Below the pieces are notes generated by a model that worked only from the letters and a program-made list of their open reading frames with translations, did not search any database and was not told where the DNA came from. The position numbers were made by a program, and so were the translations under genes. From a virus, in IMG/VR virus record IMGVR_UViG_3300023106_000021, positions 1-39,036 of that record: DNA of 39,036 bases. The stretch is one strand, 5' to 3'. Position 1 is the first letter of the stretch, and each line of letters begins with the position of its first letter. Of the stretch, positions 1 to 12,030 are shown piece by piece.

Positions 1-141
1 GATCTGCTCAGGCCAGTATGTCGGATGGCGACGAGAGCAGCCGAGATTTGCCTTTTTCTGAGCCTCCACATTTTCGCGAGCCCGCTCAGCATACCACCGC
101 ATAGCCGCTATGCGCTCCTCGACTGGTTGCTCGTACCACAT
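1..141 (-). CDS. hypothetical phage protein, 3' end cut by window edge
   Basis: The reading frame opens at ATG 141 and stays open to base 1, giving 47 residues. It begins MWYEQPVEERIAAMRWYAER and has a helical, Arg/Glu-rich N-terminus followed by a segment with HPTYWPEQ. It starts 14 nt after the stop of the leftward gene at 155-298, with a GAGG 10 nt before the ATG, so the two look co-transcribed from the promoter at 328-356. I do not recognise the family. Its cut C-terminus and the cut gene at the other window edge (38918-39036) are both small leftward phage genes and may lie close together on a circular map, but the frames do not join directly. The function is unknown. Confidence 0.5.
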   Translation of the reverse strand, partial: MWYEQPVEERIAAMRWYAERARENVEAQKKANLGCSRRHPTYWPEQI

Positions 142-154
142 GGTGGCTTGCACC

Positions 155-298
155 TCACTTCGCCCGGATTGAGTGGTAAACTTCGCTGGCGAACTTCTCG
201 AACGACCCGGCGCCGCAAACCTTGTCCATTGCGTCAGCTGCCGACATACCCTGTGCCATCAGGTTGCGGATTTCATTAGTGATCGGGGCGTTGGTCAT
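155..298 (-). CDS. small hypothetical phage protein (47 aa)
   Basis: The frame starts at ATG 298 with GGAG seven bases upstream and stops at TGA 155-157. The product is a short, mostly helical protein beginning MTNAPITNEIRNLMAQGMSA, with no membrane segment and no cysteine pair. It is the first gene downstream of the sigma70-like promoter at 328-356, so it probably heads a leftward transcript. I recognise no family. The small size, good ribosome binding site and tight spacing to the next gene support a real gene; a role in takeover or early late-operon regulation would be speculation. Confidence 0.6.
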   Translation of the reverse strand: MTNAPITNEIRNLMAQGMSAADAMDKVCGAGSFEKFASEVYHSIRAK

Positions 299-327
299 TT
301 TCAGTCTCCATCTCGTCTTTATGCCCC

Positions 328-356
328 CTTATACCCGGCAGTTACGGCACCGTCAA
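328..356 (-). promoter_or_regulatory. sigma70-like promoter for leftward genes
   Basis: On the minus strand a TTGACG -35 box (351-356) is followed by exactly 17 bases and a TATAAG -10 box (328-333). This is a near-consensus host promoter. The predicted start is about 20 nt before the ATG at 298. If the genome is circular it would feed the leftward packaging and structural block entering at the right edge of the window. Confidence 0.6.
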
Positions 357-432
357 TACGTAACCAAAGATTATTTTCACCCCACCCCACACACCCCGCT
401 CCAACGCGGGCGCGCATATTTCTATAGAACGC

Positions 433-620
433 TCCAAGAGCGCTCCAAGAAAACTGCTACGGATAAGGGGGGCTTGAGCGGCATTCCAAGAAGTCATCCA
501 AACTGATAACCGAGCCGCCGTGCGGTCGGTATCATTTGGATTCTTGGATGTCAAGCCTACCTACGCACCACCATTTTTCCAAAACATCCAAAAGAATTCC
601 AAGAGAATTATACATTTGGA
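433..620. repeat. iteron-like array of TCCAAR motifs
   Basis: Ten copies of TCCAA(A/G) are visible. Forward copies start at 433, 444, 485, 497, 578, 587 and 598. Reverse copies lie at 535-540, 543-548 and 615-620. Several neighbouring copies are 9 to 12 bp apart, about one helical turn, so a protein could bind them on one face. Two more copies (719-724 reverse, 726-732 forward) fall inside the 3' end of the primase gene. By simple counting a both-strand six-base motif with one two-fold position is expected about once per kilobase. The array may bind the phage initiator or a repressor. Confidence 0.7.
483..550. other. long imperfect inverted repeat (cruciform or bidirectional hairpin)
   Basis: The left arm (483-518) and right arm (522-550) pair around a 3-nt CGT loop. 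The inner stem is ACCGA(g)CCGC against GCGGTCGGT, with one bulged G. The pairing continues outward through TGATA/TATCA and two iterons on each side, broken only by short bulges in the left arm. It could act as an origin cruciform or single-strand initiation site. It could also be a terminator for leftward transcription leaving the primase gene; no U-run follows, which favours the first idea. Confidence 0.55.
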
Positions 621-2752
621 GTAATGCCGAAAAGGGCTTCAGCCACTACCCAATTAGCCCTTATTCCACCCTTGGCTTGTCGCCCCCGGTCATCCTCATA
701 TTCATAATCTTCAAGCACCTTGGATTCCAAAAGATCACGCAAAGCGGCCCTGATATCGTCGCCATCGAGTGAAAATATTTCTGCGATCGGATACCCAATC
801 CACCGCTTTGACTGCCCCTTATTGGTGCGACCGAACGGCAGATCCGTGCAGACCCCATTCTCATCGACGTACATATCATCAACGACCGCCAGCAGCCGCG
901 CTACATCGGCGGCATCGAAGCGGTTAGCGGCGCCCTTCGGCATCCAGGGCGAAAGGGCGCCTACCTCATCACCACCCTCACTGTCGCCAACCGGCCCGTT
1001 CTGAAGCGTGACGGAAATTTTCTCGAACCACGTCCGCCCGCCAATAAGCGAGTTGTTGGACTTGGCATCATCATAACGCACGTACCTGAAACGCTGGTCC
1101 TCATCGACGCCAAGTAAGGGCGCCTCAGCCTTGGACATCACGAACAACGTTGCCGCCAGACGCGCAGAATTGACGATCGCACCACCGCCACGAATCACGT
1201 CCGCAGAACCCGCTTTATCCTCGGAGCCCTTGGTCGTGTGATGCACCAGATAGACCGCAGCGCCCGTCGGGCGTGCAATCTTGTCGCGCCATATCTTCAT
1301 CGCCCACTTTGTATCGCCGTTGGAATTCTCGTCACCGTCGAACGTCTCGGCAAACGGATCAACGATAATCACGTCGATCTTGTGATGATTGATGACCTGC
1401 ACCAGCTCATCAACCAGAGGCGTAGCGACCTGGGACTTCTTCACGGCGTCCGCGGTAGATACCAGAATGTTATCCGGCGCATCCGCCAGCATGATCATCC
1501 CCGGACCCGCCTTCATGTCCATCACGGTGCGAGCGGCCACCATGCGGCGGCGCTGCTCTGCAATGTCATCCTCGGCATTGATGATCAGCACGCGGCATTT
1601 GCGCTTGGGTTTCCACTTCGCCCAGCCCTCGCCAGCCGCCAGCATCAATGCCAACTGAAGCGTGAAGACGGACTTTCCCGTACCACCTGGAGCGGCAAGA
1701 ATATGCGTGGCTCCCGCAAGCAAAGCGCCCGGCACGATCCAGGGGCGCAAGGGAATATCCGCCTCCTTGAAGTCCATCGCGTCCACGAAGGATATGGCGC
1801 AAGCCGGCGCTTCAGGTGCAGGCTCAGGGCGATTGCCGAAGTCGATCAATCCTTGGCGAAACGTGGTTGCGACAGCCTCCACGCCCTGCTCTATCATCTG
1901 GTCGTTGAAGTCATCGCCTTTCTGAAGGGGTGGCGGCGCAATGACCGGCACATCCAATTCGCGGCCCAATCGCTGCATGGCATCCAGTGCCTTGCGATCC
2001 GCGGCGATGACGACGGACACGCCCGCTTCTTGCATCTTGCGCGCGATGTTGGGAATTTGCCCTTGGCTGAAGGCAACCACCACCCGGTCCGCCGTTGCCT
2101 CGAATATGGACGCCGCGGTGGCGAACCCTTCGCAGATGATGGCGCGACCGAACCCGATGCCAATATAGAAACGTCCGTCGATTGTTGGTGCGTCCTTCTG
2201 GAACAGCTTTTTGTCGCCATCGTTCGGAGGGATGGTCTGGACGTTGATCAAGTCGCCGTCGGCATCCCACATAGGGACCAACAAGTTTCTACCTTCTGCA
2301 CGCGCTCCGCACGGTGCGATCTGCTTTCGGTCGAGATAACCATTGGCGCCGTCGATGGGCGTGGCGCGGTCCCAACGCCGTTGCGCCTGGGCAATCGCCG
2401 CCACGCGAGCCGCTTCGTTCTTTCGGTCCTCAGCCTCCAGCCACTGCCGGCGCTTCTCGCGGTCTTCCGCGGATAGCTCGATGGCCTGTCCACCCGTCAA
2501 ACGTGCGATAGCTTCCTGCGTCGTCACGTTCTCCATCTTGGCAACAAAGTCGATAACATCGCCGTGCGCGCTGCATCCGAAGCAATGCCAGCTTTCGTCA
2601 TTCTCTTTGAACTTCAGGCTAGGTGAGTTCTCTTGATGAAATGGACAAAGCGCCTCGTACCAGCCTGCATGCTTGCGGATCTTCAGCGCCTTGCCGATCA
2701 CTTCCGTTAGCGGGAACTGCTGCTTGATGGCCTCGAAATCGTAGCCTTTCAT
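608..2752 (-). CDS. phage primase-helicase (CHC2 zinc finger, Toprim, RepA-like ATPase)
   Basis: This 714-residue protein combines priming and unwinding. An N-terminal CHC2-type zinc finger shows CPFH near residue 37 and CFGC near 57. A Toprim-like core around 190-275 contains IICEGFATAAS and VVIAADRKA. A C-terminal RecA-fold helicase of the RepA/AAA_25 type has Walker A GGTGKS, Walker B VIIVDP and a VHHTTKG motif. I chose ATG 2752 because GGAAGG lies 8 nt upstream and the ATG overlaps the TAA of the preceding HNH gene; an upstream in-frame start at 2782 would overlap more. No DNA polymerase gene is visible, so the phage probably relies on the host replisome with this protein starting synthesis. 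Its 3' end abuts the iteron region. Confidence 0.9.
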   Translation of the reverse strand: MKGYDFEAIKQQFPLTEVIGKALKIRKHAGWYEALCPFHQENSPSLKFKENDESWHCFGCSAHGDVIDFVAKMENVTTQEAIARLTGGQAIELSAEDREKRRQWLEAEDRKNEAARVAAIAQAQRRWDRATPIDGANGYLDRKQIAPCGARAEGRNLLVPMWDADGDLINVQTIPPNDGDKKLFQKDAPTIDGRFYIGIGFGRAIICEGFATAASIFEATADRVVVAFSQGQIPNIARKMQEAGVSVVIAADRKALDAMQRLGRELDVPVIAPPPLQKGDDFNDQMIEQGVEAVATTFRQGLIDFGNRPEPAPEAPACAISFVDAMDFKEADIPLRPWIVPGALLAGATHILAAPGGTGKSVFTLQLALMLAAGEGWAKWKPKRKCRVLIINAEDDIAEQRRRMVAARTVMDMKAGPGMIMLADAPDNILVSTADAVKKSQVATPLVDELVQVINHHKIDVIIVDPFAETFDGDENSNGDTKWAMKIWRDKIARPTGAAVYLVHHTTKGSEDKAGSADVIRGGGAIVNSARLAATLFVMSKAEAPLLGVDEDQRFRYVRYDDAKSNNSLIGGRTWFEKISVTLQNGPVGDSEGGDEVGALSPWMPKGAANRFDAADVARLLAVVDDMYVDENGVCTDLPFGRTNKGQSKRWIGYPIAEIFSLDGDDIRAALRDLLESKVLEDYEYEDDRGRQAKGGIRANWVVAEALFGITPNV

Positions 2753-3414
2753 TATAATAGCCTTCCGTTTTGGCGTGCCCAATCAAGGGGATGTTTTGCG
2801 CTTTTGCGCACGTTGCACGTCTCGCAGAGACATTGCAGATTCTTTGGCCAGTTCGATCCGCCCTTAGACAAGGGCATGATATGATCGACGTGATATTTGT
2901 CGTTCAAGCGCGTCTTGCACTCGGCGCATTTTCCGCCTTGCTGCTCAAAAATGCGATCAACGTCTGCTCTGGTGTGCTTGCCTTCAGCGCCACGGACGCG
3001 AGCGCGCCGATTAGCGGCCTGTGCGTTGTTATTGGGTGACGCCCTTCTTCTCGCGCGTCGAGCCTCGACCTTCTCGGCAGGCATAATGGCAACCCAATAA
3101 TATTCCAGATACTTTTGCCGGTTCTTATTCAGATACTCAGCGCATTTTTGGCGAAACTCGGGGTTCTTCCAATTTTCCTTGCGCTGCTCGGCTAACTTCT
3201 CGGCGTTCTCGGCTTTCCACCGTTTGCCATGCTCCAGCACCTTTTTTCTTTTTTCTTCGTCAAGGTAGTAGCGCGCTGAGTCCTCCGCTGCGCAAGTGAC
3301 GCACTGACCGTTGGCAGCGTGACGCAACGCAATATGACCGCGCTTGCATGGCTTGCCGGTAAAATACCTAGTGTCGCCAGCGGTCTTAGCCTTGGCTCTA
3401 GTCGGCTGCATCAT
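2752..3414 (-). CDS. HNH endonuclease
   Basis: The protein has 220 residues. Its N-terminal half carries cysteine pairs (KPCKRGH, CVTCAAE) typical of a recognition module found before phage HNH domains, then a charged helical linker. The C-terminal HNH domain shows CAECKTRLN, then DHIMPLSKGG with the DH catalytic pair, then N-x3-C-x-x-CN (NLQCLCETCN). This fits free-standing phage HNH nucleases that nick DNA and may be mobile or serve in packaging. The start ATG 3414 overlaps the stop of the upstream 56-aa HTH gene. The gene sits between regulator and primase, a common insertion place for homing nucleases. The nuclease class is clear; the target is unknown. Confidence 0.85.
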   Translation of the reverse strand: MMQPTRAKAKTAGDTRYFTGKPCKRGHIALRHAANGQCVTCAAEDSARYYLDEEKRKKVLEHGKRWKAENAEKLAEQRKENWKNPEFRQKCAEYLNKNRQKYLEYYWVAIMPAEKVEARRARRRASPNNNAQAANRRARVRGAEGKHTRADVDRIFEQQGGKCAECKTRLNDKYHVDHIMPLSKGGSNWPKNLQCLCETCNVRKSAKHPLDWARQNGRLL

Positions 3415-3581
3415 TCGCCCTTCAGATAGTCTGACAGCGCTTTGACTGTCTCGTAGGATGGGTTGCGGGTGCGACCCTCGCGGATGTCAATCACGGTCGC
3501 AACACGAACACCGCAAACCTCTGCAACCATAGTGGGGCGGCGGTCCCGCAGCTTTTCGACGATTTCGGGTAGGGTTAGCAT
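3411..3581 (-). CDS. small helix-turn-helix protein (56 aa), Cro-like
   Basis: The frame runs from ATG 3581, with GGAGG 6 nt before it, to TGA 3411-3413. The 56-residue product begins MLTLPEIVEKLRDRRPTMVA and continues with a VCGVRVATVIDIREGRTRNPSYETV stretch broken here as VCGVRVATVIDI then REGRTRNPSYETV. This is the usual XRE/Cro pattern: helix 2, turn, recognition helix, then a GRxxxPSxxTV tail. It lies directly next to the divergent promoter region and its palindrome at 3623-3638, so it may autoregulate and control the replication operons. It overlaps the HNH gene by 4 nt (ATGA). It is shorter than most XRE repressors, as expected for a bare DNA-binding domain. Confidence 0.75.
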   Translation of the reverse strand: MLTLPEIVEKLRDRRPTMVAEVCGVRVATVIDIREGRTRNPSYETVKALSDYLKGE

Positions 3582-3608
3582 TTTTCCTCCGGCGTATCAG
3601 AATGTGGC

Positions 3609-3640
3609 TTGACCGTACGTGAGACACGGCATAGTGTCAA
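3609..3640. promoter_or_regulatory. overlapping divergent promoters around a 16-bp palindrome
   Basis: Rightward: TTGACC (3609-3614), 17 bases, then a weak TAGTGT -10 (3632-3637). Leftward: a TTGACA on the minus strand at 3635-3640, then 17 bases and a weak TACGGT -10 (3612-3617). The two promoters are superposed, so each -35 covers the other's -10. Between them, 3623-3638 reads GACACGGCATAGTGTC, with perfect GACAC/GTGTC arms. A single bound protein, perhaps the 56-aa HTH product, could switch both directions. The -10 boxes are poor, so an activator is possible. Confidence 0.5.
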
Positions 3641-3668
3641 CGACGGAAGAAGCAGAGAAGGAAATGCA

Positions 3669-4529
3669 ATGAGTATCCTCGACCGAGCCTCCAAGCCGGA
3701 GGTTGAGCCTTTCGTCGGCACTATCGTCGGCGTACAGGGAACAGGCAAAACCACACTGGCCTGCACGTTCCCCGACGTGATTATGATCCGCACGCAGGGT
3801 GAGAAGCCACCGCGGGACATTCCAAAGAATCAGACGCCAACGCTGTTGGAGGTGGAAACCGCAGCCGAGCTATGGGACGCGCTGAAGGCGCTTTTGCGTG
3901 AAGACCATTCCTTCAAGACACTGACATTCGATACCGTCACCGGCCTAGACATTCTGTTTACACAGGACGTACTTGCCGCAGATCCGAACGCACGCGGTCT
4001 GAACCAGAGCCACGGCGGCTACGGCAACGGTGCTAGCATGGTTTCAGCGGCACATATGCGTGTTCGAAAAGCTGCTGAAATGCTTCGTAAGCAGAAGGGC
4101 ATGAACATCATCTTTCTGGCGCATGCCGAGATTGTGGATGTATCACCCCCAGACGGAGATCCATATTCGACCTATTCCTTGCGCTTGCCGAAGAAATCAT
4201 TGGCGCCGTACCTTGATAGCGTCGATTGCGTCGGGTTCCTGAAGCAGGAGCGCGTGGTCCGTGGAGCAGTCGAAGCCAAGAACGATCGCGGTGCAAAACC
4301 TGGGCGTGCCATCACCAGCGGGGACCGCGTGCTAGTGACGTATCTCACACCAGCGATGGCGTCGAAGAATCGCTACGGCATCACTGAAGACATCGACGTG
4401 GTGAAGGGTGAGAACCCGCTAGCTGAGTGGATCGGCCTTGCCGACAAGCCGCAGCGCAAGCCTAAGGAACCCGTTTCGGAACAACCCGATACGATCGATG
4501 AAGAAGTCAACGAAGAGAAGGAAGCATAA
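3669..4529 (+). CDS. Sak4-like RecA-fold single-strand annealing ATPase
   Basis: This is a 286-residue P-loop protein. Walker A is GVQGTGKT at residues 21-28 and the Walker B-like strand is TLTFDTVTGL with Asp at 88; a later hydrophobic strand IIFLAHAEI fits the RecA core. This pattern matches phage 'AAA family / nucleotide-binding' proteins of the Sak4 group, which act as recombinases together with a phage SSB. I chose ATG 3669 over an earlier in-frame start because AGAAGGAAA precedes it and the earlier start lies inside the promoter. The next gene, 2 nt downstream, encodes an SSB-like protein, and an exonuclease follows, which strengthens the recombination call. Family assignment is from motifs and context. 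Confidence 0.75.
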   Translation: MSILDRASKPEVEPFVGTIVGVQGTGKTTLACTFPDVIMIRTQGEKPPRDIPKNQTPTLLEVETAAELWDALKALLREDHSFKTLTFDTVTGLDILFTQDVLAADPNARGLNQSHGGYGNGASMVSAAHMRVRKAAEMLRKQKGMNIIFLAHAEIVDVSPPDGDPYSTYSLRLPKKSLAPYLDSVDCVGFLKQERVVRGAVEAKNDRGAKPGRAITSGDRVLVTYLTPAMASKNRYGITEDIDVVKGENPLAEWIGLADKPQRKPKEPVSEQPDTIDEEVNEEKEA

Positions 4530-4530
4530 A

Positions 4531-5166
4531 ATGTCATTTTGGGACCTAGACGATGGAACAAGCGCAGTCACCAACGACAAGGAATACAGCGCAGGCGGCG
4601 GCGACTTCGACGTAATCCCCAAGGGTTCTTCGGTTCTCGTCAGTATCGAAGATGCCTCTTGGAAAGAGGGTTACCAAGTTTCCGAAACCTTCGTAAATCT
4701 GAAGGTGCGTGTCGCCAAGCCCGAGGCTTATGCAAACCGGATCTTGTTCTTCAAGCTTTGGATCGACGACCTCGATCCCGGCGTTAAGACGAACGGTGTG
4801 TTTGATCGTGCCAAAGCCGTAACGAAGCGTGATAAGCATAAGAAGATGCTGATGGCCATCGACGCCAACGCGAAGGGCAAGCTTGCCAAGCTTTCGGGGC
4901 GTCCTACCGATGACCAGTTGGCTATCGCGCTAACTGCAACACAGTTCGTCGCAACTCTCGGCGTTTGGGATAAGACTGACGACGAAGGCAAGAAGACGCC
5001 TGGGGGAAATTGGTTAATGGCTTCGAAGCCGAAGACCGCTGAAATTTCGGAACCCGCCCCCAAGTCCACCGGCAACGGCGGCAACTCCACCACGCGCCAG
5101 CGCAGTTCGTTTGCTGACGATTTAGACGACGATGTGCCATTCATCACCGCCAACGGAGTATTCTAA
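4531..5166 (+). CDS. SSB-like protein with acidic C-terminus (DUF669-like)
   Basis: The 211-residue protein starts at ATG 4531, one base after the upstream stop. Its N-terminal two thirds (FWDLDDG..., VLVSIEDASWKEGY, FVNLKVRVAKPEAY, LFFKLWI) look like a beta-rich OB-fold of the kind found in DUF669-type phage proteins. A Ser/Thr/Gly-rich linker leads to the acidic motif DDLDDDVPF near the C-terminus. That resembles the DDDIPF tail by which SSB recruits partners, although here a further seven residues follow. Placement directly after the Sak4-like ATPase matches known Sak4-SSB pairs. It should coat single strands during annealing and replication. Confidence 0.65.
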   Translation: MSFWDLDDGTSAVTNDKEYSAGGGDFDVIPKGSSVLVSIEDASWKEGYQVSETFVNLKVRVAKPEAYANRILFFKLWIDDLDPGVKTNGVFDRAKAVTKRDKHKKMLMAIDANAKGKLAKLSGRPTDDQLAIALTATQFVATLGVWDKTDDEGKKTPGGNWLMASKPKTAEISEPAPKSTGNGGNSTTRQRSSFADDLDDDVPFITANGVF

Positions 5167-5181
5167 CCACCCCTTACCGGA

Positions 5182-5199
5182 CCCCGCTTCACGGCGGGG
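5182..5199 (+). other. intergenic hairpin
   Basis: A perfect 6-bp GC stem (CCCCGC / GCGGGG) with a TTCACG loop follows the SSB-like stop by 16 nt and precedes the next ribosome binding site. No U-run follows, so it is more likely an mRNA stability or processing element, lowering or separating downstream expression, than a full terminator. Confidence 0.45.
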
Positions 5200-5224
5200 C
5201 GAGGCTAAGAAGTGGAGAAGTGAA

Positions 5225-5479
5225 ATGTCATTGTACGATAGGGCTGATGTAAAGCGCACAATCCAGATTGATGATCTGACGCCTAAGGAGTTGGCGGCGT
5301 TGTTCTGCGATATGTTCGGAAACCAGCAAGCGGAATTCTTTGACGAGATCTATGCCATTACTCGCAAATGGCCGGGGGCTGGCTGGTGCCAGCAATCATG
5401 CGATCTGGTTAGCCATCTGACTGCTGATGGTCGCGAAGCCGTCAAAGTTATGGCAGCGCATCTGGAGTCGGAAGCATGA
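5225..5479 (+). CDS. hypothetical protein in recombination operon (84 aa)
   Basis: The frame starts at ATG 5225 with GTGGAGAAG just upstream and ends by a 4-nt ATGA overlap with the exonuclease gene. The soluble product begins MSLYDRADVKRTIQIDDLTP and has a predicted helical core (KELAALFCDMFGNQQAEFFD) plus a GAGWCQQS segment. The sequence resembles small proteins that recur beside phage exonuclease or annealing genes. I can name no domain with confidence. Translational coupling to the exonuclease suggests a partner in recombination or nuclease control, which is inference only. Confidence 0.75.
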   Translation: MSLYDRADVKRTIQIDDLTPKELAALFCDMFGNQQAEFFDEIYAITRKWPGAGWCQQSCDLVSHLTADGREAVKVMAAHLESEA

Positions 5480-6345
5480 TCGAACAACGCACCCCCGAAT
5501 GGTTCGCGCAAAGGAAGGGCCGCGTCACAGGCTCAGTCGTAGGCGGCATCCTGGGCCTATCCCCGTACATGACCCGAGCCGATGTACTACGAAGCATGGT
5601 TCGTGCTTCCCTGGGCGCTCCCAGCGAGTTTACCGGCAACGTCGCAACCGAGTGGGGCACGTACAACGAAGCCGGCGCCATCCAAGAGTTTGAGATGGAG
5701 ACGTCCGAGCGTGTCGATAAGATGCCGTTCGTGGCATACGAAGATTGGCTAGGCGCATCGCCCGACGGCGTGGTGACTGATGGCAAGGGCCTAGAGGTCA
5801 AGTGCCCCTTCGGCATCCGCAACGATCCCAGCCCCATCTTCAAGATGCCGCAGGAGTTGCCGCATTACATGGCACAATGTCAGGTGGAGATGTTCTGTGC
5901 CGACTGGCAATCGCTTTGGTTCTATCAATGGACACCGCACGGCACCTGCAACAAATTAATTCATCGAGACGACGATTGGCTGGCTACTAATATTCCGCGT
6001 TTGAAGCAGTTTCATGCTGAGTATTTGTGGGAGTTAGAGAACAACCCCGACGAACACCTTACCGACAAGCGCATAACCATAGACACTCCCTCTGCACAAA
6101 AGATGGTCGCAGAGTACGACCAGCTAACCGAAGCCTTGGAGCGCGCTGGAGAACGGCGGAAGGAACTCTTGGCGGAGATGGTATCCCTGAGCGGGGAGAA
6201 GAACGCCGTGTTTGGTGGGCGTAAGCTGACGCTGACGAAGAAGGCGGGTGCGGTGTCTTATGCCAAGGCGGTGAAGGAACTGGCTCCGGGTGCGGATCTT
6301 ACGAAGTGGACTGGTAAGCCTTCGGAATATTGGGGGTTGAAATAA
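5476..6345 (+). CDS. YqaJ-type viral recombinase exonuclease (lambda Exo-like)
   Basis: This 289-residue protein shows the full lambda Exo/YqaJ signature. It opens QRTPEWFAQRKGRVTGS with the W...R..R.TGS helix, then has WGTYNE with the Glu at 65, GASPDG with Asp at 97, and LEVKCP with Glu 107 and Lys 109 as the metal-binding catalytic D-ExK set. A helical C-terminal part follows (about 190-240, coiled). It should digest one strand of linear duplex 5' to 3', producing substrate for the Sak4/SSB pair encoded just upstream. It overlaps the preceding gene by 4 nt, and the helicase gene begins on the next base after its stop. Confidence 0.9.
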   Translation: MIEQRTPEWFAQRKGRVTGSVVGGILGLSPYMTRADVLRSMVRASLGAPSEFTGNVATEWGTYNEAGAIQEFEMETSERVDKMPFVAYEDWLGASPDGVVTDGKGLEVKCPFGIRNDPSPIFKMPQELPHYMAQCQVEMFCADWQSLWFYQWTPHGTCNKLIHRDDDWLATNIPRLKQFHAEYLWELENNPDEHLTDKRITIDTPSAQKMVAEYDQLTEALERAGERRKELLAEMVSLSGEKNAVFGGRKLTLTKKAGAVSYAKAVKELAPGADLTKWTGKPSEYWGLK

Positions 6346-8136
6346 ATGCCTCTCCGCGGATACCAGCAGAACGCATGTGATGCCGCGCTCGACTACATGC
6401 GTTCTACTACCAGCCCTTGCCTGATCGATGCAGCACCCGCTGCCGGCAAGTCGCACATGATAGCGTATATTGCTGACACCCTCCACCGAATCAGCGGCGG
6501 TAAGCGCATCCTATGCCTTGCGCCGAATGCCAAGCTGGTGAAGCAGAACATGGATAAAATGCTCGAAACCGGGCATCCATGTTCCATGTTTTCCGCCAGT
6601 GGTGGCGTCAAATCTACTCGGCACAACATCATCTTCGGGACGCCTGGAACGGTCGTTAACGCCATCTCGCGCTTCTCCGACGGCTCCTACTGCGCCGTAG
6701 TGGTAGATGAGTGCCACGGCATGACACCGACCATTCTCTCCATTGTAGAAGCCATGCGTGCGGGCAATCCCAACCTCCGCGTGCTGGGGCTCACCGGCAC
6801 GCCCTACGTCATGGGGAAGGGATACATATTTCGTCAGAACGCCGACGGACGAATCAATGGCGAAGACGTGTGCCGCGACCCGTATTTCACGCGCTGTGTG
6901 TATCGCGTCTCGGCAAGAGAGATGCTGGACGAGAAATACATAACCCCCATGATCGTCGGGCAGATCAATGCGGAGTCATACGATACCTCTGGCGTAAAAA
7001 TACTCCCTAATGGGCGCCTAGACGATGCCAGCGTAGAGCGCGCGTTCGTTGGGCATGGCAGGAAGACCGCTGGAGCCGTCGCAGACGTGGTGGCGCAGGC
7101 GCAAACCCGTAGCGGGGGTGTGATGCTCTTTGCCGCCACGATCGCGCACGCGCATGAAATTATGGCTTCGTTGCCGCCGGGTAACTCCGTAATGGTGACG
7201 GGCGACATGGCGCCAGCAGACGAGAAGAAAGCTGTTGCGGCCTATAAAGCGCACAGGGTCCGCTACGTGGTGTCCGTCGGCAAGCTAACCACAGGCTTTG
7301 ACAGCCCTTGGACCTCTATCATCGCCACCCTACGCTATTCTGAGTCCGCAACGCTGCTGACGCAGATCCTGGGTCGGGCGTGGAGACTGTTCGAGGGTAA
7401 AGAAGATTGCTTGTGGCTAGACTACGCCGGAAACTATGACCGACACTTCCCCGACGGGGATATTTACTCGCCTACTATCAAGGCCGGCAAGGCTGGCGAG
7501 AAGGGCGGGGCTATCGTCGCTGAATGCCCGCTATGCGCCCATGAGAACGATTTTACCGCTAATCCCGACACGCTTGACTACAAGCTCGACAAGCATGGCT
7601 ACTGCCTGGATGTTTGGGGCAACCCAATCGAGACAGAGTTTGGGCCTATGCCGGGTCATTTCGGACGGCGCTGTAACGGTTTGGTGAAGGCCGGGCCGGA
7701 ATACGTCAGGTGCGGCTATTTCTGGACTTCGCGTACGTGCGAAGTGTGCGAGGAAAAGAACGATATCAGCGCGCGTAGATGTAGGTCCTGCAAATCAGAA
7801 ATCATCGATCCGAACGAGCGCTTGGTAGCAGAATTCCAAGCCGCCAAGAAAGACCCGACGCAGCCGCAGACTGATGTAGTTTTGTCATTGGAAACCAAGG
7901 AATCTGTATCGCAGCGCGGAAACAAGACCGTGCGTGCCGAGTGGAAGACGCCGTTTCGTAACTTTACCGTCTGGTACACGCCAGAAAGCAAGCACCCAAC
8001 CGCACGTACCGACTGGCAGAAGTTTCTATCGGCAACCCAAGAGGGACCACCGGAAACGGTGTCCTACGTTCGCGGTGTCGATACAGCATTCTACCGCACC
8101 CTGGCATTCAACATGGAGGCAGACGTTGCGCCTTGA
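6346..8136 (+). CDS. SF2 DEAD/DEAH-box helicase with C-terminal zinc ribbons
   Basis: The 596-residue protein has motif I PAAGKS (31-36), motif II DECH (121-124), motif III LTGTP (149-153), motif V TTGFDSP (315-321) and motif VI QILGRAWR (340-347). This is a complete superfamily 2 helicase core like phage UvsW/RecQ-type branch-migration or restart helicases. Beyond residue 390 it carries cysteine pairs (CPLC at 394-397, then RTCEVCEE and RRCRSC), probably one or two zinc ribbons for DNA or partner binding. It begins directly after the exonuclease stop. The RBS of the next gene (GGAGG, 8115-8119) lies inside its 3' end. A role in fork or recombination-intermediate processing fits the operon. 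Confidence 0.88.
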   Translation: MPLRGYQQNACDAALDYMRSTTSPCLIDAAPAAGKSHMIAYIADTLHRISGGKRILCLAPNAKLVKQNMDKMLETGHPCSMFSASGGVKSTRHNIIFGTPGTVVNAISRFSDGSYCAVVVDECHGMTPTILSIVEAMRAGNPNLRVLGLTGTPYVMGKGYIFRQNADGRINGEDVCRDPYFTRCVYRVSAREMLDEKYITPMIVGQINAESYDTSGVKILPNGRLDDASVERAFVGHGRKTAGAVADVVAQAQTRSGGVMLFAATIAHAHEIMASLPPGNSVMVTGDMAPADEKKAVAAYKAHRVRYVVSVGKLTTGFDSPWTSIIATLRYSESATLLTQILGRAWRLFEGKEDCLWLDYAGNYDRHFPDGDIYSPTIKAGKAGEKGGAIVAECPLCAHENDFTANPDTLDYKLDKHGYCLDVWGNPIETEFGPMPGHFGRRCNGLVKAGPEYVRCGYFWTSRTCEVCEEKNDISARRCRSCKSEIIDPNERLVAEFQAAKKDPTQPQTDVVLSLETKESVSQRGNKTVRAEWKTPFRNFTVWYTPESKHPTARTDWQKFLSATQEGPPETVSYVRGVDTAFYRTLAFNMEADVAP

Positions 8137-8545
8137 TAACTTACCATTTCCTGTGTTCGGTGACACATCGTTTAGGGGCAAATGCCCTAAGGAATACGTA
8201 GAACAGGCATCTATTATTAACAGGATCCGAAAGGACTACCCCGATACATGGGGGTTGCTTGTGCTGCACCCTCGCAACGAGGGTTTGAAGGAGGGCGGTC
8301 AGTTCTCCACCGTCCTGAAGCATAAAGCTGAAGGCATGGCAGTTGGGGCAAGTGATGTCGTGATACCAGCTTCGGTGGCCTTCGTGTGCGAGGTCAAGAG
8401 GTTGGACCACACGCTATCATCATGGCAACCGGGACAGGTGCCCTATCTCACCGCTGCGCATAATGCCGGCGCGTTCGCCTGCGTAGCCTTGGGGGCTGTA
8501 GGCGCATGGGAAGCGTTCGAAGCTTGGAGAAAGTCTCTTGTTTAG
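8126..8545 (+). CDS. VRR-NUC domain nuclease, TTG start
   Basis: The 139-residue protein shows the VRR-NUC pattern: HPRNEG near 48, GMAVGASDVVIP with the catalytic Asp, then VCEVKR giving the D-ExK set, then the Gln of GQVPYL. Stand-alone VRR-NUC proteins of phages are structure-selective or Holliday-junction-type nucleases of the PD-(D/E)XK fold. There is no ATG. TTG 8126 is chosen because GGAGG sits 6 nt upstream and the conserved region begins shortly after. It overlaps the helicase gene by 11 nt in another frame. It completes an exonuclease/helicase/resolvase set in this operon. Confidence 0.82.
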   Translation: MRLDNLPFPVFGDTSFRGKCPKEYVEQASIINRIRKDYPDTWGLLVLHPRNEGLKEGGQFSTVLKHKAEGMAVGASDVVIPASVAFVCEVKRLDHTLSSWQPGQVPYLTAAHNAGAFACVALGAVGAWEAFEAWRKSLV

Positions 8546-8777
8546 ACACCCCTACCAATGGCTCCACCTAATTCTAACCGGCCAGATCGATATGGAAGAC
8601 GCGCCGCTGAGTGTTCAATCCTGGGCACGCCTGCCGATCTTTCAGGGCGCGTGCGACATCATCAAGATGGATACCCCTGAACAACGAAAGGCCGAACTCG
8701 CTAAGATTCCTCCGCGCGTTCGGCCTTGGGTTGAGAGGGAAGTAAGAAGGGTTTGGGTTATGAGGACATCTCTTTGA
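8538..8777 (+). CDS. hypothetical phage protein (79 aa), last gene of rightward block
   Basis: The frame begins at TTG 8538 with GGAGA 7 nt upstream, overlapping the VRR-NUC stop; an internal ATG at 8592 is possible but has a poorer site. The product is soluble, with HPYQWLHLILTGQ near the start and a basic helix EQRKAELAKIPPRVRP toward the end. The last 20 nt overlap the 3' end of the convergent Myb-like gene at 8758-8907. I do not recognise the family. Its position at the end of the recombination operon is all that hints at function. Confidence 0.6.
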   Translation: MFRHPYQWLHLILTGQIDMEDAPLSVQSWARLPIFQGACDIIKMDTPEQRKAELAKIPPRVRPWVEREVRRVWVMRTSL

Positions 8778-8907
8778 CGTATTCCAAACGACGCCGCACA
8801 CCCTTAGTGCTACGACCTAACCTTACGCCTATGATGGCGTAGGGCAGGCCGCTATCTCGCAGGCTCTGAGCTGCGTTGGTTTCCTCGCGTGTCCAATCCG
8901 GTTTCAT
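8758..8907 (-). CDS. tiny Myb/SANT-like helix-turn-helix protein (49 aa)
   Basis: From ATG 8907 to TAA 8758-8760 the product begins MKPDWTREETNAAQSLRDSG and continues LPYAIIGVRLGRSTKGVRRRL. The W at 5, the LRDSGLPYAIIG segment and the G-RSTKGVRRRL recognition helix match a single Myb/SANT-like or GcrA/sigma-like HTH. The ATG overlaps the stop of the DpdA-like gene (ATGA), and the 3' end runs 20 nt into the convergent gene 8538-8777. A gene this short with such a clear DNA-binding pattern is probably a regulator. GcrA-type motifs of this kind are common in alphaproteobacteria. Confidence 0.65.
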   Translation of the reverse strand: MKPDWTREETNAAQSLRDSGLPYAIIGVRLGRSTKGVRRRLEYVKEMSS

Positions 8908-9647
8908 GCTGCCATTGCCTCCAAATTATCGGCGTACCACTTACGCCCGTTCCATTTACCCGGTCCGTACCCCTCAAACATACAAGCCTGATGATCGCGC
9001 CAGTCGTGACGATGGCCGTTCTGAGCCAAGCTAGTGGCGTCCACCGATAAGAACGGATAATCACCTCCGACCAGAATGCCGCGAAGCATGTGAATGGGAG
9101 GCCACCTGTTTCCTAACGCTTTGGCTATTTCGTCCATCTTAGCGCGGTACGCGGGACAGCCGACATCCTCTTCTTCCGGTTTAATTCGCTTGGCGACCTC
9201 GTCAAAGCCACCAACCCAGCCAAGACAGACACGGTCGAACCGGTCGCATAGTTTTAACAAGCGATCGGTGGAACCATTCATGTGGAACAGCGGCGCTCCG
9301 ACGCTGCGTCCAAAAGGCCAGTCGTTCAACAAGCCATCGTTAAACTGCGTCGGCGCTCCAGGCCGATCAGGGATGACACCCCAGCATCCCGGTTGAAATA
9401 TCCGCTGTTCGTACCACGCATATAGCTTGGTATGGTCACGGGGGGCCTCATCCCATTCCAGTCCGTCTTTCTTGGCCTTGTTCCATGCCTTGAACTCGCC
9501 GTTGTCGTACATACGAAACGGGCAATGCTCCAAGGCCCGTTGATCGTCTGTAGGCGTGCCATAGCTAATGCACACGCCACGCGCAGGCATAACGGCCTTA
9601 AACGCCGCCTTAGGCGTCATAGGAGTGCCGTGGTACACGAAGGCCAC
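8904..9647 (-). CDS. DpdA/TGT-like 7-deazaguanine transglycosylase
   Basis: The 247-residue protein resembles tRNA-guanine transglycosylase paralogs of phages (DpdA), which swap guanine for a 7-deazaguanine in DNA. Visible matches: MYDNGEF with Asp 48 in the position of the TGT general-acid Asp (DSGGF); GVIPDRPG then W, like the VPD...W segment of DpdA; CDRFDRVCLG; HMLRG; and SVDATSLAQNGH with Asp 203 at the TGT nucleophile position (compare D...PTRNARNGH). The classic CxCxxC zinc site of TGT is not obvious. GTG 9647 is chosen for the GGGAG 8 nt upstream; another GTG lies at 9662. The adjacent QueD-like gene supports the pathway. Alternative: a tRNA-acting or inactive relative. Confidence 0.62.
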   Translation of the reverse strand: MAFVYHGTPMTPKAAFKAVMPARGVCISYGTPTDDQRALEHCPFRMYDNGEFKAWNKAKKDGLEWDEAPRDHTKLYAWYEQRIFQPGCWGVIPDRPGAPTQFNDGLLNDWPFGRSVGAPLFHMNGSTDRLLKLCDRFDRVCLGWVGGFDEVAKRIKPEEEDVGCPAYRAKMDEIAKALGNRWPPIHMLRGILVGGDYPFLSVDATSLAQNGHRHDWRDHQACMFEGYGPGKWNGRKWYADNLEAMAA

Positions 9648-9649
9648 GC

Positions 9650-9988
9650 TTAGCGCTCCCACCGTGCGTAGAGGCCTTCAGTGTGGCGGTTCACGTCAAC
9701 TGCGATGCAGACGCTACCATAATATTCCAACTGTCCGCCAATATAACGTGCAAGGCTCTCACCAGTCGCAATAGCATCGGGCAGCACGTTGCCTTGAAAT
9801 CGGCAGATAGCCGTAATCAATGCTTTTTGCAGGCTTTCAGCGTCGTCGCCAGCATGGAACCATGCGATCAATTCCCATGTGTGGGGGTGAATGTCACCCG
9901 GCTGAAAAGGCGGGCGGTGTGAAGCATTAAGGATAGCCCTTACCCCCGTCAGTCGCCGTTCGGGCTTCTTGCGATTAAACCAGCTCAC
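9650..9988 (-). CDS. QueD/PTPS-fold protein lacking usual catalytic Cys
   Basis: The 112-residue protein aligns by eye along the whole of 6-carboxytetrahydropterin synthase (QueD). The zinc histidines are present: H24 in NASHRPP, then H34 and H36 in IHPHTWEL, matching AAHRLPH and LHGHSF of E. coli QueD. Later ATGESLARYIGGQL matches PTSEVLAKWI. However, the catalytic Cys that precedes the HxH pair and the His of the LDHH motif are absent (here PGD and RFQG), so normal QueD chemistry is doubtful. Some phage QueD relatives have been proposed to act on 7-deazaguanine bases, for example as decarboxylases. GTG 9988 overlaps the upstream stop (GTGA). It directly precedes the DpdA-like gene. Confidence 0.6.
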   Translation of the reverse strand: MSWFNRKKPERRLTGVRAILNASHRPPFQPGDIHPHTWELIAWFHAGDDAESLQKALITAICRFQGNVLPDAIATGESLARYIGGQLEYYGSVCIAVDVNRHTEGLYARWER

Positions 9989-10719
9989 GCCGCCATCCTC
10001 CGCAAAGCCCGCTCAGCCCGCCCAATAAGCTCAGCGTCGGTGATCCCAACAGACCGCCCACAGATCCAGAATCGGCCCCGCGGATCCTGCTTACCCTCCG
10101 CGGTACACCGGACGACTGGCTTCCACCCGTCGCGCTGCAACACACGCTGAGCCTCCCCCGCCGCCGAGTCCTCCTTATACCCACGATCGACAGGCGCGCT
10201 CATGTAGCCGGGTTTGGCGATCTTCTGTGGCTTCTCCGCGGGTTGGCGGGTGAAGTCTATGGCGCGGACGTTGGCGCCCTTCTGGATACGCTTGAGCCCC
10301 TTAGACACAACCCAGCGGCGCACGGTCTTCGTGCTAACCCCGTAGTGCTTACACAGCCACGATACAGGGTTGTCGGTCCACCTACTAACGAAGTCATCGG
10401 GAACAGGCTTGGCGGGCACTCTACGCGACTGTGGCGTGCCCTTAGACAACCGGTAGCGATCGACAGCGTTGCAGACACGCTTGCGGCCCACGTTCATCTG
10501 TTTGGCGATGGCGTCGTAGGAATGCCCCGACTCTACCAGCGTCTTGAGGGTGTTGAGCATATCGTCCGTCCAGGCGCGCTGGTGGACCGACACGCCCGAC
10601 ATACGCCGCCAGCGCATGATGGTATGCCGGCCTACGCCGTACATGGCCATCTGCTCCGGTACCGTCTTGTGCAGGTGTTCGCGGAAGTCGGCGGGGAGGG
10701 GGTTTTTAAGGGGGGTCAT
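9985..10719 (-). CDS. multi-HTH DNA-binding protein (244 aa)
   Basis: The protein contains at least three helix-turn-helix-like units: EQMAMYGVGRHTIMRWRR near 25-40, a Myb-like unit DMLNTLKTLVESGHSYDAIA with KQMNVGRKRVCNAV near 53-88, and SWLCKHYGVSTKTVRRWV near 118-137. A C-terminal part holds CTAEGKQDPRGRFWICG, seen in phage proteins of unknown function. It starts at ATG 10719, overlapping the upstream stop by 4 nt, and overlaps the QueD-like gene by 4 nt. It may be a transcription regulator or a site-specific DNA-binding partner of the modification genes. It is not recognisable as a known repressor. Confidence 0.7.
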   Translation of the reverse strand: MTPLKNPLPADFREHLHKTVPEQMAMYGVGRHTIMRWRRMSGVSVHQRAWTDDMLNTLKTLVESGHSYDAIAKQMNVGRKRVCNAVDRYRLSKGTPQSRRVPAKPVPDDFVSRWTDNPVSWLCKHYGVSTKTVRRWVVSKGLKRIQKGANVRAIDFTRQPAEKPQKIAKPGYMSAPVDRGYKEDSAAGEAQRVLQRDGWKPVVRCTAEGKQDPRGRFWICGRSVGITDAELIGRAERALRRMAA

Positions 10720-11003
10720 GCCATTGCTTCCTGAATGATGCGATTGTGTTCCGTGCGAACGTATTCGCTTGCAGCAATCTGGCGGCGGGCTCCCTCTGAC
10801 GAAGCCGAAATCATGCGCTCAATAGCTTTTTCCAGCTTTTCGCGGTCTGCGCCGTGTGCCTTGACTGCGTGCTTATCGCCGCGACGTTCTCGGAAATTAC
10901 CTTCCTTGAAACGAACTGTCTTGTCGGTCACGGCAGTTATAGTCACGATTACAGGACGGTAGCCGCCCGTCCATATAGCGTAATGGCCTACTTCGATTGT
11001 CAC
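10716..11003 (-). CDS. hypothetical protein (95 aa)
   Basis: I choose GTG 11003 because GGAGG lies 7 nt upstream and the GTG overlaps the stop of the upstream membrane-protein gene as GTGA; an ATG at 11018 is in the same frame. The N-terminal half is beta-like (VGHYAIWTGGYRPVIVTITA), resembling a small SH3-like barrel. The C-terminal half is a charged helix (DREKLEKAIERMISASSEGA). Soluble, no cysteine motif. I recognise no family. It sits in the tightly overlapped leftward operon with the HTH and modification genes. Confidence 0.65.
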   Translation of the reverse strand: MTIEVGHYAIWTGGYRPVIVTITAVTDKTVRFKEGNFRERRGDKHAVKAHGADREKLEKAIERMISASSEGARRQIAASEYVRTEHNRIIQEAMA

Positions 11004-11149
11004 ACCCCATCCTCCCATTCATCAACGCCGGGACCATCGTGGTAGCCAGTGCGGTCTTGCCAGCCATCAGGCGCTTTGATTACCTCCCAAGCGATCCAGC
11101 CCAGCAGGATCACGAAGAACGCGATGAAGGCGTATGCGCCGGGGGTCAT
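11000..11149 (-). CDS. small membrane protein (49 aa)
   Basis: From ATG 11149 to TGA 11000-11002 the product begins MTPGAYAFIAFFVILLGWIA. That gives one strong transmembrane segment (about residues 5-21) with a short outside N-terminus and an acidic soluble tail ending in DEWEDGV. It overlaps both neighbours by 4 nt (ATGA upstream, GTGA downstream), a sign of a real translationally coupled gene. The function is unknown; such single-pass mini-proteins in early phage operons are often host-interaction or exclusion factors, which is inference. Confidence 0.62.
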   Translation of the reverse strand: MTPGAYAFIAFFVILLGWIAWEVIKAPDGWQDRTGYHDGPGVDEWEDGV

Positions 11150-11319
11150 GAGAAAAAGCCTCCCCACTGGAGTAAATAGAGCATCAGGAACAGGTTAAGC
11201 AGGGGACTCCACCATTTATCGGCGGGTCTAGGCTTGCCTAAATCCGTGTAGCGAACAAACGTGCCGAGAATCAGCAGCGTTAGCAAGATGCCCTCAGGCC
11301 AGCCGATGTTGATGTTCAT
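11146..11319 (-). CDS. small membrane protein (57 aa)
   Basis: ATG 11319 to TGA 11146-11148, preceded by an AGAGAGAGGA purine stretch. Two hydrophobic segments (ILLTLLILGTFV near 11-22, LLNLFLMLYLLQW near 40-52) flank a charged loop (YTDLGKPRPADKW), giving a two-pass hairpin topology. It overlaps the GIY-YIG gene upstream and the 49-aa membrane gene downstream by 4 nt each. I recognise no family; a role at the inner membrane with its neighbour is possible. Confidence 0.6.
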   Translation of the reverse strand: MNINIGWPEGILLTLLILGTFVRYTDLGKPRPADKWWSPLLNLFLMLYLLQWGGFFS

Positions 11320-11717
11320 GCCAAACGTCCTCTCTCTTGGTTCATCTCAGGCACTTGGTCTTCAAAGAATTTCAGAGCCGCTTCTGCCGCTTCTGGGCTT
11401 AACCCACCATCAGTGGTTAATAGGTGGAGCTTATATTCTCGCGTCGGTTCTTCTGGTTTTTTGCTATCGTCAAAGGTGCTGCGAATAAAATCCCGTATTT
11501 CGGAGCAATCTTCAAACCATTCTCCGTGCAACCTGCGTGCAGCGAACTTAGAATGGAGCGCCTTTTCCTCTAGCAGCGATCCCTTGATGGTATGGAAAAG
11601 CTCTAGAATCACATGGGAGCCCGTTTGAAGCTGCTTAATACGGCCAACTACATCGTTTTTCGCGTATCCGATCTTAATGGGGCCAGCGCATCCCAAAGGG
11701 CGAACGAAGTAAATCAT
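11316..11717 (-). CDS. GIY-YIG nuclease (T5orf172-like)
   Basis: The 133-residue protein begins MIYFVRPLGCAGPIKIGYAK, in which IYF and IKIGYA occupy the GIY and YIG strand positions, followed by the conserved Arg in VVGRIKQLQTGSH, then EKALHSKFAARRLHGEWFE with the His/Glu pair of the T5orf172 subfamily. The C-terminal 40 residues are polar and helical. Such nucleases occur as free-standing phage enzymes and as parts of mobile genes. It lies between the XRE regulator (its stop directly precedes this start) and a small membrane gene, so it is under the same leftward promoter. Confidence 0.82.
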   Translation of the reverse strand: MIYFVRPLGCAGPIKIGYAKNDVVGRIKQLQTGSHVILELFHTIKGSLLEEKALHSKFAARRLHGEWFEDCSEIRDFIRSTFDDSKKPEEPTREYKLHLLTTDGGLSPEAAEAALKFFEDQVPEMNQERGRLA

Positions 11718-11924
11718 TCAAGCCCCCATCGCATCAAGGCTGCGTTCCAGCTTGCCAATAGTGACGAGTGAGGGGACGTATCCCTTGCCGCCCTGATTGC
11801 GCTTGATCCACCGAGTGATGACAGTACCAGAGACGCCGGCATCTTTGCACAAGGCATAGAGCGAGATCCTGGCGGCGAATGTGCGCTTGCGCACTTGCTC
11901 CATGAGCTGGTTTCTTTCGTCCAT
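11718..11924 (-). CDS. XRE-family helix-turn-helix regulator (68 aa)
   Basis: ATG 11924 begins a 68-residue protein. FAARISLYALCKDAGVSG with TVITRWIKRNQGGKGYVPSLV split here is the classic XRE layout: helix 2 LYALCKDAGVS, recognition helix TVITRWIK, then a PSLVTIGKLERSLDAM dimer helix. It is the first gene of the leftward block C and faces the rightward block D across a 106-bp intergenic region, exactly where a Cro/CI-like switch would sit. No peptidase or oligomer domain is attached, so it is Cro-like in size. Alternative in-frame TTG starts are not needed. Confidence 0.78.
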   Translation of the reverse strand: MDERNQLMEQVRKRTFAARISLYALCKDAGVSGTVITRWIKRNQGGKGYVPSLVTIGKLERSLDAMGA

Positions 11925-12030
11925 GCGTCATTGGTAGCGTGTGTTATTTTGTGCGTCAACGTCAATTATCGTGTTGACACCAACCCACCCCCGCGCCCAT
12001 AACCCCTCCAACAGCAATGGAGCAAATGAT
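11925..12030. promoter_or_regulatory. divergent promoter/operator region between blocks C and D
   Basis: Rightward, TTGACA (11974-11979) is followed 18 bases later by CATAAC (11998-12003), a plausible sigma70 promoter for the genes from 12031. Leftward, two tandem TTGACG boxes occur on the minus strand (11960-11965 and 11954-11959); the second has a poor TACCAA -10 at 11931-11936 after 17 bases. A small palindrome GTGTTGACAC (11971-11980) covers the rightward -35 and is a candidate operator for the XRE protein encoded alongside. Confidence 0.45.

Follow-up and report, generated by a model that had tools for sequence, protein, structure and literature searches.

To our knowledge, the replication origin is unknown for most phages. 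The DNA analysed here, the 39,036 nucleotides of an IMG/VR virus record (hereafter the window), carries an unusually dense set of short repeats beside a primase-helicase gene, and the question is what these repeats do and which protein reads them. The record is that of a tailed phage, with SU10-type portal, capsid and terminase genes. The initial annotation had proposed two readings of the repeats, a replication origin or the operator of a global phage regulator.

A TCCAAR array and a long hairpin behind the primase-helicase gene

The initial annotation had listed ten TCCAAR copies in 433-620 and two more at 719-732, in the 3' end of the primase gene. All 12 sites were located at the positions given there (Table 1), and the described spacing of about one helical turn was recovered as 8-12 bp. 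The array starts within the last codons of the primase-helicase gene, around its stop codon (608-610), and occupies the 309-bp gap behind the gene (~299-607); an AT-rich stretch (571-620) overlaps the iterons. The whole window contained 40 TCCAAR copies, against 32.2 ± 6.4 expected from dinucleotide shuffles, and there is thus no genome-wide enrichment. A 300-bp stretch accounts for twelve of these copies, and the remaining 28 are dispersed at background level (~0.7 per kb), which makes the array unique in the window and bears out the expectation that its density would not be matched elsewhere. TCCAA was the top-clustered 5-mer of the whole 39-kb window (10 copies in 188 bp), and mononucleotide shuffles of 301-620 gave a mean of 0.33 copies and a maximum of 4 in 20,000. 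The pair at 719-731 had no counterpart at the equivalent place in L003, the closest relative, and may be accidental. Because TCCAAR is not enriched elsewhere in the genome, the proposed operator of a global phage regulator found no support; the origin, the other half of that proposal, was strongly supported by the comparisons described below.

Missed by the initial annotation, the copies at 485, 497, 535 and 543 form the arms of a long inverted repeat, at whose centre lies a GC-rich stem-loop (~503-534). Folding of 300-640 as single-stranded DNA gave a z of -6.4. Iterons are found on both sides of this hairpin, with three copies and one opposite-strand copy towards the primase stop codon and two on the far side. 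When 14 close relatives were analysed with RNAalifold, pairing of the left iterons with the inner arm was preferred over the long inverted repeat. The iterons being inverted copies of each other, either pairing could form, and for this reason compensatory changes inside the iterons alone are no proof of a stem.

Other signals were read near the array. The TTGACA box just outside the stem may be a -35 element or else belong to the outer stem. One hairpin subtype (window 466-569, L006, L017 and L041) has common outer-stem boxes, TGCGTAGG and CCGTAGCA, irrespective of the iteron letters, and the TTGACA box of this subtype was present in the window, L006 and L017; these shared boxes could serve to bind a host factor, or could be a promoter that fires into the hairpin. 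The sigma-70-like promoter at the other end of the gap was read by eye, and a consensus promoter scan listed no site at 329-356; a similar promoter was read after the array in L008, L013, L015 and L019. GC skew of the window tracked the gene strand, with no clean switch at the array.

Table 1. Positions of the repeats, the hairpin and neighbouring features in the window
Feature	Coordinates	Strand	Remarks
Primase-helicase, 724 aa	608-2782	-	CHC2 zinc ribbon (DnaG type), Toprim (Toprim_3), AAA_25, C-terminal domain
Variable C-terminal domain, residues 618-724	608-931	-	Predicted winged helix; proposed iteron reader
Iterons of the array (n = 10, 188 bp)	433-620	both	Starts: + strand 433, 444, 485, 497, 578, 587, 598; - strand 535, 543, 615
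Two outer iterons, TCCAAG	433-438, 444-449	+	11 bp apart, beyond the hairpin as seen from the primase gene; relatives have an equivalent pair
Three iterons	578-583, 587-592, 598-603	+	Spacing 9 and 11 bp; AT-rich stretch adjoining the primase stop codon
Iteron	615-620	-	Within the last primase codons (Thr-Pro-Asn-Val-stop); first member of a pattern that recurs, minus / ~20 bp / plus / 11 bp / plus
Two more TCCAAR copies	719-724, 726-731	-, +	Within the coding sequence for the primase C-terminal domain; position not conserved
Long imperfect inverted repeat	466-562		~97 bp, 40 pairs; arms carry iterons 485-490 (+), 497-502 (+), 535-540 (-) and 543-548 (-)
TTGACA box	547-552	-	Just outside the stem; common to the L006 and L017 arrays
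Sigma-70-like promoter	329-356	-	TTGACG 351-356, TATAAG 329-334, 16-bp spacer; precedes the next small genes
56-aa HTH protein gene (HTH56)	3411-3581	-	Position just before the primase gene kept in most relatives

Relatives keep the layout of the array with other letters

Primase homologues from viral contigs and genomes served as relatives. None of those examined had a literal TCCAAR array, and an array of other letters was found there instead. Read by eye, the repeats at the same place were CCCCAAA in L003, L005 and L019, CCCCAAT in L008, L009, L014, L016 and L017, CCTCATT in L010, L011, L012 and L018, and CCTCAAT in L013 and L015, and the motifs of more distant loci included GCGCCATT, GGTGGAGCA, TTGTGGC, TGACGCA, AATTGCGC, TGTTTC and TATCCCA. 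Absence of the array from close relatives had been named at the outset as grounds for rejecting the initial proposal. The literal array is indeed missing even from L003, whose primase is 99% identical, but L003 has, at the same place, an array that keeps the layout and uses a different motif, and a search for the literal letters would have misled.

In a blind test of 83 loci, the windows of each locus were scored by their most over-represented 6-mer, and the 400-bp one at the helicase stop codon was set against all others of that locus. The stop-codon window ranked first for motif clustering in 41 of the 83 loci and within the top 5% in 69%; about a third of the distant loci missed a significant array in this test. 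The arrangement minus-(17..22)-plus-(10..12)-plus occurred in 16 of 35 loci, some of them mutually related and hence not fully independent, whereas 3-4 were expected when orientations or gaps were permuted. Hairpins recurred as well: at the place of the array the median z was -6.3, against -1.0 in other windows, and ~90% of 49 loci lay beyond the 5th percentile of the background, a comparison that slightly favours the test windows, for which the better of two offsets was taken, over the background, for which a single window and fewer shuffles were used. The genes downstream of the array were not conserved among relatives. The layout of the array is conserved, then, and its letters are not.

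Direct pattern searches were also made. An exact scan with the 19-mer TCCAAAAGAATTCCAAGAG returned only AT-rich contigs and no dense clusters. A gapped pattern scan returned at least 120 stretches, the best of which, among the matches listed, was in L200, the contig of an unrelated phage. In L200, TCCAAGA-type heptad repeats make up palindromes in three intergenic gaps (548-660, 2996-3040 and 4960-5070), and this is a different kind of repeat element.

The motif changes together with the C-terminal domain of the primase-helicase

The helicase part of the protein encoded beside the array matched RSF1010 RepA (1g8y) with E = 5.4e-14. Its C-terminal domain was modelled as a winged helix with a mean pLDDT of 89.5, the second helix of the predicted HTH comprising residues 674-686 (~725-763). 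Among the structural matches listed, the neighbours of this domain were generic winged helices (BLM RQC, MukF, MarR-like; Z <= 7.2), the exception being an uncultured-phage DnaG/twinkle-type primase (E = 1.2e-5). P4 alpha and SaPI Rep were not among these listed matches, an absence that carries no weight in either direction. No relative was returned by a scan with only the C-terminal domain of the window, megablast of window positions 1-12000 against known phages gave no match, and no member of a repC-like family was present among the eight window proteins scanned.

Comparison of close pairs pointed to this domain. The primase-helicases of the window and L003 were 99/99/99/95% identical over residues 15-614, 51% over 618-655 and 28% over 656-724, and their repeats are entirely different, as is the type of hairpin. 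L016 and L018 were 100/99/88/91% identical and then 51/51% C-terminally, with the motifs CCCCAAT and CCTCATT. L065 and L068 had helicases 94% identical and C-terminal domains 58% identical; here the two arrays align in place and most of the aligned iterons show the same change, TGGCGCA to TGACGCA. In a partial Mantel test of 42 loci, the motif correlated with the C-terminal domain given helicase identity (r = 0.26, permutation p = 0.001), a modest correlation, and the reverse test, of motif and helicase given the C-terminal domain, gave r = 0.09. At the level of sequence comparison, the motif tracks the last ~110 residues of the primase-helicase and not the rest of the protein, suggesting that the C-terminal domain is probably what reads the iterons. 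This domain is encoded next to the array, and linkage alone could make both travel together; linkage has no power, however, to explain a concerted change of iterons in place.

The 56-aa HTH protein, which the initial annotation had suggested as a binder of the array, was considered as the reader and rejected. L016 and L018 have near-identical HTH56 proteins and different motifs, L008 and L016 a common motif and different HTH56 proteins, and these discordant pairs exclude HTH56 as the specificity determinant. It is probably the repressor of the operon. The 56-57-aa HTH genes are exchanged independently of the primase (identical in L016 and L018, different in L008 and L016), as expected of a repressor or immunity determinant. 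Between the HTH56 and primase genes of the window lies a 220-aa HNH endonuclease ORF (2752-3414, minus strand). Since HTH56 directly precedes the primase in relatives, a homing-endonuclease gene seems to have been inserted recently into this replication operon.

Arrays in cultured phages and plasmids

Arrays at the same place, each top-ranked in its own locus, were found in Alteromonas phage XX1924 (GGTTCA, 12 copies), Idiomarinaceae phage 1N2-2 (GGTACA, 11) and phage CGphi29 (GGGACA, 6); the helicase loci of Rhizobium phage RHph_X2_26 and Rhodoferax phage P26218 were checked and no array was seen. Two circular plasmids, L237 and L238, also had one. Rhodoplanes serenus plasmid 1, which has a terminase gene, carries nine copies of GGTGACGC and a hairpin with z of -11.6, and Methylobacterium indicum pVL1_6, with tape measure and ParA genes, carries 13 copies of GTGGGG. 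Among the genes listed for pVL1_6, many of them hypothetical, the Toprim and RepA-type helicase genes adjoining the array were the only annotated replication genes. A Microvirga plasmid showed a weaker array, and it also has RepB and RepC. As circular plasmids with terminase or tape-measure genes that carry the helicase-array-hairpin module, the Rhodoplanes and Methylobacterium plasmids look like phage-plasmids, which may use the module for their maintenance. Carriers of this putative module include cultured gammaproteobacterial phages and probable alphaproteobacterial phage-plasmids. In the cyanobacterial Microcystis phage Mae-Yong1326-1 (L241), GACTGGCGCA repeats and long inverted repeats lie ~170-400 bp after the gene of a RepA-like RecA-family ATPase; these repeats are similar to the alphaproteobacterial GCGCCA-type arrays and were not top-ranked, 6 of 58 windows scoring as high.

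A candidate replication origin and its proposed initiator

We consider it highly likely that 433-620, with the hairpin at 466-562, is the replication origin of the phage, and that its initiator is the neighbouring primase-helicase, whose C-terminal domain would bind the iterons. Read directly from the sequences are the array, the hairpin, their place at the 3' end of the primase-helicase gene, the layout kept with other motifs, and the joint change of motif and C-terminal domain. In the mechanism that we propose, the C-terminal winged helix would bind the short iterons as assemblies on either side of the hairpin and thereby load the RepA-type hexameric helicase; the inverted repeat would be melted or extruded, the fused DnaG-type primase would begin primers on the exposed strands, and forks would then depart in one or both directions. 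Since the initiator domain adjoins the iterons in the DNA, both could be exchanged jointly as one cassette, which would change the specificity of the origin and not break replication.

The iterons of such an origin might instead be read by another phage or host protein, with the primase-helicase merely recruited. IncQ plasmids offer a precedent, for there a helicase of the same RepA type works with a distinct iteron-reading protein, RepC (PMC4234260), whose gene stands beside repA. We nevertheless regard this arrangement as unlikely here: HTH56 is excluded by the L016, L018 and L008 comparisons, relatives do not share the genes that follow the array, and the motif tracks the C-terminal domain of the primase and not the remaining protein.

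The array could also be an operator, its TCCAAR copies being the binding sites of a regulator of the primase operon or of the 329-356 promoter; such a regulator might be a phage repressor or the primase-helicase itself. The presence of that promoter after the array, of the TTGACA box at the hairpin edge and of genes for small HTH proteins nearby would fit such a role, but no copy of the motif overlaps the promoter, the array stands at the 3' end of the operon and not at its start, the window has no second TCCAAR cluster, and the long hairpin and its conservation would be left unexplained; we hold this reading to be highly improbable. Scarcely credible, in our view, is a reading in which the hairpin simply ends transcription of the primase operon and the array consists of palindromic intergenic repeats with no role in replication. 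Central stems such as GCCCCCCtaaaGGGGGGGGC do look terminator-like, and the palindromes of the unrelated L200 show that TCCAAGA can occur in such repeats. A terminator scan found no site in 1-1200, however, and iterons also lie outside the stem, at about helical spacing and in a recurring pattern of orientations, in an array that is unique in the window and whose motif co-changes with a predicted DNA-binding domain.

Taking the array as an origin read by the primase-helicase, our comparisons suggest that a closely similar layout is common among phages with RepA-type helicases. It is possible, and we put it forward tentatively, that these loci represent a widespread and undescribed class of phage and phage-plasmid origin, in which an iteron-hairpin-iteron unit lies behind a DnaG-primase/RepA-helicase gene and the C-terminal domain and iterons form an exchangeable, diversifying specificity cassette; the pressure might come from nucleases that target the origin, from satellites or from competing phages. 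We know of no earlier description in open PMC papers, and one may exist elsewhere. If the reading is true, such origins could be recognised by the most clustered short motif together with a hairpin at the 3' end of a RepA-type helicase gene, and dozens of naturally matched pairs of a DNA-binding domain and a 6-8-bp site would be at hand. These matched pairs, with the near-isogenic swaps among them (window/L003, L016/L018 and L065/L068), would open to direct test how an initiator and its origin shift their specificity in step, a question of long standing.

Comparison with known replication systems

The closest parallels in arrangement are found in mobile elements and plasmids. In the pri-rep-ori modules of PICIs and SaPIs (Ubeda et al. 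2007; PMC6092414; PMC7581432), as here, the origin lies directly 3' of the initiator-helicase gene, has two sets of short iterons (here 578-620 and 433-449, flanking the hairpin) and varies in iteron sequence between elements. Such a rep-ori, with element-specific iterons directly 3' of the initiator gene, has been experimentally proven for SaPI and Gram-negative PICI (PMC6092414, PMC7581432). The iterons are read there by the helicase C-terminal domain, here the candidate reader, and the primase, fused to the helicase in the window, is sometimes fused in those elements too. Likewise, the C-terminal domain of SCCmec Cch2 binds repeats downstream of its own gene (PMC7581432). PICIs and SaPIs differ in having an AT-rich region between the iteron sets, where the window has a GC-rich hairpin (stem-loop 503-534), and the window belongs to a full-size phage with a RecA/AAA_25 helicase of the RSF1010 RepA type fused to a DnaG-type primase.

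The pRN1 orf56/orf904 origin (PMC4234260) and, by prediction, that of Bordetella phage BIP-1 share the order of a small DNA-binding protein gene, a primase-helicase-winged-helix gene and an origin stem-loop of ~100 nt. Replication of pRN1 depends on this ~100-nt stem-loop, which lies downstream of orf904 (PMC4234260); the structure of the stem-loop is likewise retained while its sequence diverges. Iterons are absent from pRN1, and its primase is of the archaeo-eukaryotic type and its helicase of the SF3 class, in contrast to the CHC2 zinc ribbon, Toprim_3 and AAA_25 domains found in the window. The alpha protein of phage P4, with its ori and crr, combines a Toprim-type primase, a helicase and a C-terminal winged helix (here predicted) in one polypeptide, and it binds the origin repeats, unwinds and primes (PMC4234260); its helicase is of the SF3 type and not of the AAA_25/RSF1010 RepA type, and in the window, unlike at P4 ori, the array follows the gene directly on its 3' side and includes a hairpin. 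RSF1010 oriV of the IncQ plasmids (RepA/RepB'/RepC) shares the homologous RepA-type helicase, iterons plus stem-loops and a dedicated primase, whereas RepC, which reads the iterons there, is a protein of its own, as is the primase (PMC4234260).

Joint change of reader and site has its parallel in the RepA/ori modules of the Vibrio cholerae PLE, in which the initiator DNA-binding domain and the origin are exchanged together and the remaining initiator is conserved (PMC8263062). The PLE initiator is of the RepA_N type and its origin has three ~30-bp repeats, with a nuclease directed at the origin given as the cause of the swap. By analogy, the candidate origin of the window would function like the PICI rep-ori and the pRN1 origin, and by the tests made it is a member of neither, because its helicase and primase are of other classes than those of pRN1 and its centre is a GC-rich hairpin where the PICI origin is AT-rich.
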